From positions 1,488,001-1,552,000 of the forward strand of contig DASUNM010000023.1 in NCBI GenBank assembly GCA_036277115.1: 64,000 nucleotides of DNA. The letters are read 5' to 3'. The translations under genes and the position numbers were made by a program. The notes under the pieces were generated by a model, which was not told the origin of the DNA, did no database searches, and saw nothing but the letters and a program-made list of their open reading frames with translations. Shown here piece after piece: positions 41,488 to 58,755 of the stretch (its first letter is position 1; every line of letters begins with the position of its first letter). The stretch comes from Pyrinomonadaceae bacterium. GTDB taxonomy: Bacteria; Acidobacteriota; Blastocatellia; Pyrinomonadales; Pyrinomonadaceae.

Positions 41488-41532
41488 GGTACGCACGCCT
41501 CCGGCGTAAAAGCATGCCTGAGGCATAAGTAC
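41488..41532. repeat. Palindromic repeat family 4, copy a
   Basis: GGTACGCACGCCTCCGGCGT then AAAAGCATGCCTGAGGCATAAGTAC, two adjacent small hairpins. Related copies are at 51928-51972 and 57321-57365. Confidence 0.75.
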
Positions 41533-41561
41533 ATGACACATCGGCTGTCGGGAGAGATCTT

Positions 41562-51927: not shown

Positions 51928-51972
51928 GGTACGCACGCCTCCGGCGTGCTGCATGCCAGAGGCATGCGTGCC
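51928..51972. repeat. Palindromic repeat family 4, copy b
   Basis: GGTACGCACGCCTCCGGCGT then GCTGCATGCCAGAGGCATGC then GTGCC, 45 bases between the asnB stop and the flippase start. It reads through in frame ahead of the flippase gene. Confidence 0.8.
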
Positions 51973-56465: not shown

Positions 56466-58565
56466 TTACTTCAAAAGTTCTTCAATCGAATCCAGGCGTC
56501 CCCGCTCGTGCTCGCCCGCACAGAGCGGCAATAAAAGCCAACGCAACTTCAGCGGCACCGCTGCTTCAACCGCCCAGCTGGCCGTCATCGAACGCTGCTT
56601 TTCGCCGTAATCACGCGAAGTGCATTGCTCTTCGGAGTTCGGCGGTCGCTGAACGTCGAGGGCCTGAACCAACAGGCGCGCACCAGTCTGCGAGTTTTGG
56701 GCGACCATTGCAGATTCATTGTAAGCGCTTAGCTCAAGCCCTGCATTGAAGTGAAAACGCGTGATGAACTGATGTTTGCCGGCGCCGGTGAACTCGTCCT
56801 CGATCAGCCAAAACCGATTCGACCTGTCGAAACGGATTGAGCGACGATGCGTGACCGGTTGAGAGAGTCGCTGATAACCGTCGTGTTCAGCAATGAGGTA
56901 ATCGAACTCGTCGTTCGTTTCCCATTTCAAGACGCGGGGGTGGGCTTCGTCGCCAATGACAAACGGCGTCTTTTCGTCGGTCGTGTTTTGCTCAACGCCA
57001 TCGATTTGAACCGTCGAATGGTACGCGGTCGAGCGAAACAAGTGACGCTCGCGCAAGTCGTGCGTGTAAACGTATGAGCCAGGATCGACGATGAACGAGG
57101 TTCCGCACGCCGAAACTTCGATGCTCAACGCGTTGTTGTGACCGTGCGAGCCGCGACCGTTCAAGCCGCACCCGCTCGCGTTGAATAGCAAATAAAGATC
57201 ATTGTCGCGGAGGATGTAAATCCCGGCATCCGGTAACGCCTGAGATGTTGCCGGCGGCGCGGCAGATAGAGATTCATAGTCGCGCCCGCCTTGCTCGCCG
57301 AGAATCCAAAGAAGTTCTTCGGTACGCGCGCCTCCTGCGCGCTGCATGCCAGAGGCGTGCGAACCCAACGCCGCGTCGGCGATCGCCGCGAGGTACGCAT
57401 GATCATCGCCCGCCCGTTTTACAATCGGTAAGATCTGCCCGCTGTCTGAATCGCCGATCAGCGGCGCTCGCCCGTCCGGTCGCAGGTAAGCGCGCATGTA
57501 ATCCGCCATCGCGCTCAGCTTCTGCCAATACTTCTGCTCGATTTCGATTCCGTTTTCGCGGCACAGAATCAGCGAGTAAAGCAGCAGTTCGAGTTTCAGA
57601 CGATGGTAACCGGTCGAGCTTTCAGAGTCCGCGCCATCGGCCAGAATCTGCTTGTCCATTTCATTCAACAGCTCGCGCAAACCAAATTCGCGCCACGCGC
57701 GCGCAGCTCGCAATTCGGGCAACATGATTCCCATCCAAAGCAGTCCGGCAACGTCGCACATGTAATGGTTGCTGGTGGCGATGTGCGAGTACTCGAGATT
57801 GCGACGAATGTGCGCGCCATGCTGATCGAAGATCATCAGCATCTCTGCCAGCGCATCTTCATCGACAAGTGTTGACGGCAGAAACAAAGCGAACGCGGCA
57901 AGCAGATTCATCGACCGTAGCGCTACTTCCATGGCGCAACTCCAGTTGGCTCCGCGGGCAACGGGATTTTGCTGCCGCCAGCTTCTAAGTTGTCTCAGGA
58001 ACGCAGCCGCAAAATTTTCATCGCTGGAAACAGCGTACGACCGGCCCAGCGTGATCAGATGCGCCAGCCGATTCAGTTCCCAGAGGACCCGAGCGTCCGA
58101 ACCGTCCCCGCGGAACAGGTTGATGTCCGCGTGATAGTCGAGCGGCCAATCAACTCCGGAAAGCGGATCGCGGTTCCAGTTAATCTCTGACGAGCTGAAA
58201 CATTTTTCGCCGAAGCCGAGCAGGGACCAACAATGCTCGTCAGCTATCCGTTTGGCCACGACCAGCAGTTGATCTGTTTCGCGCGGGAACAACTCCTTCT
58301 GCAACGCGGCAGTTTTGGTGGTGTCAACAAAACCAGGAAAAAACTTTGGCGATGAGCGTGCTCGAAAATGTTCGAGGAGTTGCGCGCGCGACAGACGAGC
58401 AAACTCCGGCGTCAAACGCGCCGGTTGATGGTTAAGCTTTTGAAGGCGTTGTCGCTCACGGCGCCGTTGCAGACGAAGGTTGACGCGTCGAAGCGCTTCG
58501 AGCGCAGCGGTCCCTGCGCTGACTTCGCCGCGCAGCATTCGTTTGATTGCTGAGAGTCCCCTCAT
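56466..58565 (-). CDS. Heparinase II/III-like (polysaccharide lyase) protein with repeat-derived insert
   Basis: A 699-residue protein. The helical toroid domain covers about 60-390 (WELNRLAHLITLGRSYAVSS, ATSNHYMCDVAGLLWMGIML). The C-terminal beta-sandwich is the heparinase II/III domain, with the conserved block GRGSHGHNNALSIEVSACG and VDPGSYVYTHDL. Such proteins cut or process uronate-containing polymers by beta-elimination. In biosynthetic loci they are linked with bi-domain oxidoreductases like that at 34041. Residues 401-415 (GSHASGMQRAGGART) are encoded by a 45-base palindromic element inserted in frame. No signal peptide is evident. Confidence 0.87.
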   Translation of the reverse strand: MRGLSAIKRMLRGEVSAGTAALEALRRVNLRLQRRRERQRLQKLNHQPARLTPEFARLSRAQLLEHFRARSSPKFFPGFVDTTKTAALQKELFPRETDQLLVVAKRIADEHCWSLLGFGEKCFSSSEINWNRDPLSGVDWPLDYHADINLFRGDGSDARVLWELNRLAHLITLGRSYAVSSDENFAAAFLRQLRSWRQQNPVARGANWSCAMEVALRSMNLLAAFALFLPSTLVDEDALAEMLMIFDQHGAHIRRNLEYSHIATSNHYMCDVAGLLWMGIMLPELRAARAWREFGLRELLNEMDKQILADGADSESSTGYHRLKLELLLYSLILCRENGIEIEQKYWQKLSAMADYMRAYLRPDGRAPLIGDSDSGQILPIVKRAGDDHAYLAAIADAALGSHASGMQRAGGARTEELLWILGEQGGRDYESLSAAPPATSQALPDAGIYILRDNDLYLLFNASGCGLNGRGSHGHNNALSIEVSACGTSFIVDPGSYVYTHDLRERHLFRSTAYHSTVQIDGVEQNTTDEKTPFVIGDEAHPRVLKWETNDEFDYLIAEHDGYQRLSQPVTHRRSIRFDRSNRFWLIEDEFTGAGKHQFITRFHFNAGLELSAYNESAMVAQNSQTGARLLVQALDVQRPPNSEEQCTSRDYGEKQRSMTASWAVEAAVPLKLRWLLLPLCAGEHERGRLDSIEELLK
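57321..57365. repeat. Palindromic repeat family 4, copy c, inside the lyase gene
   Basis: GGTACGCGCGCCTCCTGCGC then GCTGCATGCCAGAGGCGTGC then GAACC. It is 45 bases long, a multiple of three, and lies between the toroid and sandwich domains of the lyase. Compare 41488-41532 and 51928-51972. Confidence 0.85.
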
Positions 58566-58587: not shown

Positions 58588-58755
58588 CAGGTCAGAACCA
58601 CCTGCGGTAGCGATATGAGGTCAGAACCACCTGCGTTAGCGGGTGGGTTAAGCGGTCAACATAAAGCTTGAGTCCCTTGACCCATCCACTCACGCAGATG
58701 GTACCGACTTCATTACCAACCGCCCGCTATCCGACATATCGGATTCTGACTGCGT
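58588..58755. repeat. Repeat block family 6
   Basis: Two direct units AGGTCAGAACCACCTGCG (58589 and 58618), each followed by GTAGCGATATG or TTAGCGGGTGGGTTA. Then come diverged inverted units (CTTGACCCATCCACTCACGC and ACCGCCCGCTATCCGACAT). No open frame is seen. It lies between the dehydrogenase stop and the lyase start. Confidence 0.7.

Follow-up and report, generated by a model that had tools for sequence, protein, structure and literature searches.

The REP pair and its host gene

The window analysed here is a stretch of 64,000 nucleotides from a Pyrinomonadaceae genome. The element of interest lies within a minus-strand gene assigned to the heparinase II/III family from its Pfam domains and orthologues and called the lyase below. 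The features are as follows, in window coordinates.

41488..41533, no strand assigned: intergenic decayed REP pair of the same family, 46 bp, degenerate
51928..51972, no strand assigned: intergenic REP pair of the same family, 45 bp, 90% identity over 41 nt
56466..58565, minus strand: host gene, heparinase II/III-family protein, 699 aa
56580..57257, minus strand: Hepar_II_III_C, residues 437-662 (Pfam E=6e-41)
57321..57365, no strand assigned: REP pair, 45 bp; minus-strand translation GSHASGMQRAGGART, residues 401-415
57326..57342, plus strand: hairpin 1, GCGCGCC-TCC-TGCGCGC (sequence and family alignment)
57344..57360, plus strand: hairpin 2, GCATGCC-AGA-GGCGTGC, with one G-T pair (sequence and family alignment)
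57435..58208, minus strand: Hepar_II_III_N, residues 120-377 (Pfam E=3e-41)

The element at 57321-57365 is composed of head-to-head REP hairpins, GGTACGCACGCCTCCGGCGTGC and its inverse, in the layout GGTACGCGCGCCTCCTGCGCGC-T-GCATGCCAGAGGCGTGCGAACC. Each REP is 22 nt long and begins with GGTAC, followed by a hairpin with a 7-bp stem and a 3-nt loop, and a single nucleotide joins the two inverted REPs. In the consensus of the family alignment the two GGTAC ends of the pair are mutually complementary. The initial annotation, which described a palindromic repeat inside the lyase gene, was exact in position, length (45 bp) and frame, but the element is two inverted 22-nt REPs rather than one palindrome. 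The further copies that it placed between genes, at 41488 and 51928, were both found and are both intergenic. Another short repeat, GGTCAGAACCACCTGCGGTAGCG, occurs twice at window positions 58588-58650, just upstream of the lyase gene.

Translation of the minus strand confirmed that the element encodes residues 401-415 in frame. An AlphaFold2 model of the lyase built on 25 orthologues (mean pLDDT 84, pTM 0.87) predicts that these residues form a loop flanked by helices 390-400 and 416-431; pLDDT falls below 50 across residues 406-412, and the first strand of the beta domain starts at residue 440. This low-confidence loop just before the beta domain agrees with the earlier placement of the insert between the helical and beta domains.

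The lyase was aligned with 29 orthologues from other genomes, 23 from outside the genus and six from congeners, and no REP was found in any of the 23 or in five of the six congeners. The same 15 residues in distant genera, which would have told against an insertion, were present in none of those 23. In nearly all orthologues a native stretch of about 13 residues, F-x-EPxFKx...P, stands in place of the 15, and one orthologue lacks the region. Between DDHAY and WILG there are 37 residues in the window protein and 35 in the congeners. The prediction that the 15 residues would be missing from most orthologues therefore holds for the insert itself, absent from 28 of 29, but the net gain is only two residues and the orthologues offer no clean empty site. 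The alignment points to a replacement, or to an insertion after which native sequence was lost, rather than a pure addition. Together, the 28 insert-free orthologues and the modelled loop placement support the view that a repeat entered coding DNA and was probably tolerated in a linker.

In the sixth congener (G117), FQEPRFKL is retained and followed by GTHASGVPHLETTDNGAQHAGGVRT, encoded by a different REP pair of 75 bp that accounts for 25 residues at the same linker and whose spacer is 30 bp longer. In a congener tree built from nine concatenated proteins, G117 groups with G115 (support 1.0) and the window's own genome (G000) adjoins G118. Because the lyases of these two tree neighbours, G115 and G118, both lack an insert, the inserts of G000 and G117 would most simply represent two independent insertions, a single old insertion with several losses being the less simple alternative. 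The G116 orthologue (L043, G116:C34:51208-55515) is split by a frameshift and a small deletion at residues 439-453, beside the variable linker, which reflects either an assembly error or decay.

The repeat family and its probable transposase

It is scarcely credible that residues 401-415 are simply native linker, similar to the repeat by coincidence or because of a shared composition. Linker length and sequence do vary among the orthologues, and the near absence of a net gain would fit such an origin, but the best non-self BLAST match of 57321-57365 in its own genome shows 91% identity over 43 nt (E=2e-10), the element scores 65 bits against the family covariance model, nearly all orthologues carry an unrelated native motif, and the same type of peptide is encoded in many other genes. 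The genome-wide extent of the family rules this reading out. BLAST places the family at 24 sites in the genome at E<=1e-3, and the covariance model gives at least 150 two-strand matches, corresponding to at least about 75 places, at E<=0.01. A 610-kb sample of the genome, chosen around matches and screened with a purpose-built pair finder, contains 51 pairs and 33 singles; shuffled sequence yielded no pairs. These counts show that the family match at 57321-57365 is not due to chance. The shortest pairs in the sample measure 45 bp (19 copies) and the longest 81 bp. Dispersed imperfect palindromes of 20-50 nt, many of them arranged as inverted pairs, are the form expected of REPs and REPINs, and the pairs and singles counted here take that form.

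At the covariance-model threshold of E<=0.01, five congeners have fewer places than the window's own genome, and the family is absent from a sixth, G113. Among the 119 Pyrinomonadaceae genomes, matches at E<=1e-6 occur in six of the seven members of the genus and in two of the 112 others, both isolated genomes. The family hardly occurs outside this genus.

The same REP flanks a gene for a RAYT, a REP-associated Y1/HUH transposase, in three genomes. In G114 (L106) the RAYT reading frame is intact (Y1_Tnp E=4e-7), with an HxH motif, a C-terminal tyrosine and a REP pair on each side, the REP halves being identical to the consensus at 21-22 of 22 nt; the gene adjoins one resembling mnmA. A broken RAYT occupies the same neighbourhood in G117 (L111). 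The window's own genome has a truncated RAYT between two perfect inverted REPs (L060/L107; L060:3823-4296, G000:C23:16822-17295), which stops before the C-terminal part holding the catalytic tyrosine, and this genome yielded no intact cognate RAYT. Two other candidates there were rejected. The RAYT at L013/L099 (G000:C27:242404-242931) is flanked by a sister REP with loop CATCCTGC, and its 5' end is frameshifted; the five IS200-like TnpA genes are flanked by hairpins of the same shape and another sequence. These five transposase genes (L009-L012, L014) are near-identical to one another, and their conserved flanks comprise the hairpin GCACCCC-TCC-GGGGTGC together with CAACCCGAAGGGTTG and CCGGTGGTCGGAGTCCGCGGAGACCACCGG.

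No GTAG was found 5' of the hairpin; nearly all copies carry the tag GGTAC, and the family is not filed within the GTAG or CGTC superfamilies. Because its REP flanks a RAYT, intact in a congener and truncated here, the family is, as judged from sequence, a RAYT-type REP/REPIN family with GGTAC in place of GTAG, and this RAYT is the likely mobiliser of the REP pair. In the window's own genome movement may have stopped, or a sister-family RAYT may act in trans. The requirement for an exact tag varies among TnpA-REP enzymes (PMC8266576).

Copies in other genes, reading frame and reuse of loops

Genes were called with a simple purpose-built gene finder (coding fraction 0.84). In the 610-kb sample, 18 of the 51 pairs lie inside 17 genes, and the frame is kept in all 18, so that further translated copies, which the initial annotation expected, are present in at least 16 genes besides the lyase. 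The 17 decorated genes, named by Pfam except for the P-loop and membrane proteins, which had no Pfam hit and were named from sequence, encode the heparinase-like protein, xanthine dehydrogenase (XDH) large subunit, XdhC, HemW, a winged-helix/hydrolase fusion (two copies), ribonucleotide reductase (RNR), an FAD amine oxidase, ThiC, a P-loop protein, AroB, MurE, MalQ, an exosortase, an acyl-CoA synthetase, a membrane protein, a Rieske oxygenase and UvrA. In addition, a TetR regulator carries one REP pair as a C-terminal extension. In-frame insertion is seen, then, in several unrelated conserved genes. A stricter test, which judges the flank on each side by its coding statistics, retains 13 copies in the window's own genome and seven in congeners; it drops the window copy, one flank of which scores low, and for the lyase the Pfam domains and orthologues settle the matter. 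One gene (L057:9699-9815) has two element copies 72 bp apart, amounting to 39 residues including the spacer, probably through internal duplication.

Intragenic positions are occupied by 11 of the 19 copies of 45 bp and by 7 of the 32 others (Fisher p=0.015). Overall, 35% of pairs lie in genes, below the 84% of the genome that genes occupy, as expected if selection removes most landings.

The insert is cleanly absent from relatives in HemW, MurE, RNR, MalQ, the P-loop protein and the TetR regulator. The 45-bp copies add 16 residues to HemW (a gap in all five congeners and also in two PDB chains) and 14 to MurE (against five congeners), and the gains are about 14 residues in RNR, 16 in MalQ and about 16 in the P-loop protein; none of the congeners compared has these residues. 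XdhC and AroB resemble the lyase, the element having taken the place of native loop residues. Comparison of XDH, XdhC and RNR with PDB sequences gave no informative gap, and a MurE structure model from six sequences was poor (pLDDT 52).

All six frames of the consensus element are free of stop codons, and open frames make up 86% over the 51 real pairs, against 73% after shuffling. A length divisible by three, given in the initial annotation as a property of the element, applies to the 45-bp window copy but is not required: in-frame gene copies include ones of 46, 47 and 49 bp, and copies of 45 bp differ in their yield between HemW and MurE. Divisibility is therefore not what allows tolerance, and the frame appears to be kept by changes at the junctions together with selection on the outcome.

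One reading of the element predominates. Phase 0 (GTHASG...RT, either strand) is used by 12 of 18 independent coding copies (p=0.004) and by 9 of 11 coding copies of 45 bp (p=0.001), both small counts, and the usual peptide, GTHASG(V/M)xHAxG(V/M)RT, consists of small and polar residues. We infer that this bias is caused by selection rather than by insertion preference, though it could also arise if insertion itself favoured particular targets. Mutations at second codon positions number 6 of 36 in coding copies and 10 of 25 in intergenic copies, few events in either set.

We consider it highly improbable that the inserts inactivated their hosts and that frames stay open merely because the element lacks stops. 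An in-frame landing of the stop-free consensus would indeed leave an open reading frame, but each of the 18 internal copies is embedded in a long open frame, the hosts include usually essential functions (MurE, RNR), and copies of lengths not divisible by three are in frame as well. The decorated proteins are, on this sequence evidence, likely to work.

It is somewhat less improbable, but still unlikely, that the coding copies are old insertions from the genus ancestor, now decaying, instead of later independent arrivals. Related inserts are present in UvrA of G000, G117 and G118 and in the amine oxidase of G000, G114 and G117, as common descent would have it. Against this, the inserts in HemW, MurE, RNR, MalQ and the P-loop protein occur only in the window's own genome, the lyase insert is missing from G117's sister and from G000's tree neighbour, and G113 lacks the family.

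The same loops also receive other repeats. ThiC carries the GGTAC family in G000 and G114, a 66-bp pair of the TTTGGAGTGCG family in G113, in frame at the site that the GGTAC family occupies in the window's own genome, and a single hairpin resembling the TTTGGAGTGCG family in G118. Other palindromic inserts are found in the membrane protein of L150 in three congeners, and UvrA of G115 has another palindromic insert. Shared sites could mean either hotspot insertion or that only these loops tolerate inserts. The idea that the peptide was selected as an adaptive linker improving its host, beyond tolerance, draws on the predominance of one reading frame and on the repeated striking of the same loops, other repeat families included; since repeated strikes are expected too if few loops tolerate inserts, and codon-position counts give no clear constraint, we regard it as improbable.

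Two observations concern these other repeats. The second REP-pair family, TTTGGAGTGCG...CGCACTCCAAA, has dozens of copies in G113 and was noted at G113:C10:7519-7584 (L205) and in the ThiC orthologue L178. In the window's own genome a Y1 transposase gene is bordered by a repeat resembling GCCCGACCGTNAGGGAGGG, and GCCCGACCGTNAGGGAGGG-like sequence stands in frame in an acyl-CoA synthetase of G118 and a membrane protein of G117 (L016; L185; L202).

The element is very probably a non-autonomous REPIN spread within the genus by a RAYT, and translated and tolerated in loops when the frame is kept. This reading builds on the observed REP pair and its frame, its absence from orthologues, the size of the family, the REP-flanked RAYT and the reuse of sites. 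The RAYT would spread the REPIN through the genus; a copy landing in a protein loop would be translated and tolerated, given the stop-free consensus and a net change that keeps the frame; and in the lyase the copy would form the loop joining the helical domain to the beta domain, standing in for about 13 native residues of the linker. More tentatively, and with less than even confidence, REP insertion may be a recurrent source of loop sequence across the genus, with REP families unrelated to one another, several of them accompanied by a Y1 transposase of their own, rewriting the same loops independently in different species and the translated frame selected for a flexible small-residue peptide.

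Comparison with known repeat systems

Rickettsia palindromic elements (RPE) were reportedly described by Ogata in 2000 and 2002, and coding palindromes of Wolbachia by Ogata in 2005. Coding palindromes have been discussed mainly in these obligate intracellular bacteria, where weak selection could account for them. The present host is an acidobacterium with a genome of normal size (4.8 Mb), and its 17 decorated genes, for which a likely transposase has been identified, include cell-wall, DNA-repair and nucleotide-synthesis enzymes. The decorated enzymes form a natural linker-insertion set whose effects could be measured, and the system offers a direct way to examine whether new protein sequence arises from REPs.

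The likeness to RPE and the Wolbachia palindromes, palindromic repeats in frame in many unrelated conserved genes, is one of behaviour only. The best-known RPE are 105-146 bp long and the element here is 45 bp; the same REP here flanks a RAYT, and we know of no RAYT link for RPE. Unlike Rickettsia, the Acidobacteriota host is not known as intracellular. In-frame palindromes are on record from both Rickettsia and Wolbachia (PMC2229807, PMC10969869), and a decorated guanylate kinase has been shown to be active (PMC2229807).

The family shares with the REPIN/RAYT (TnpA-REP) systems of E. coli, Pseudomonas and Stenotrophomonas its inverted REP pairs, dispersed singles and a transposase gene flanked by the same REPs, but in those systems most repeats lie between genes and have GTAG in front of them (PMC8266576).

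A literature search of open-access papers found none linking in-frame REPs to Pyrinomonadaceae. Intragenic GTAG and CGTC REPs have been described in several phyla (Di Nocera et al. 2013, PMC3733652). Those REPs likewise form head-to-head dimers within open reading frames. Several lie in genes for DNA repair, uvrA among them, and UvrA is decorated here too; loops and linkers were proposed as their tolerant sites, and in one case, recB of Xanthomonas, different REPs occupy the same site in two species (PMC3733652). The present family differs in its GGTAC tag, in a dimer encoding 15 rather than 20-30 residues, in having more than half of its 45-bp copies inside genes, and in the reuse of sites by unrelated families in several proteins. 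In-frame REPs are thus already known, and the GGTAC-tagged family is a variant on that theme.
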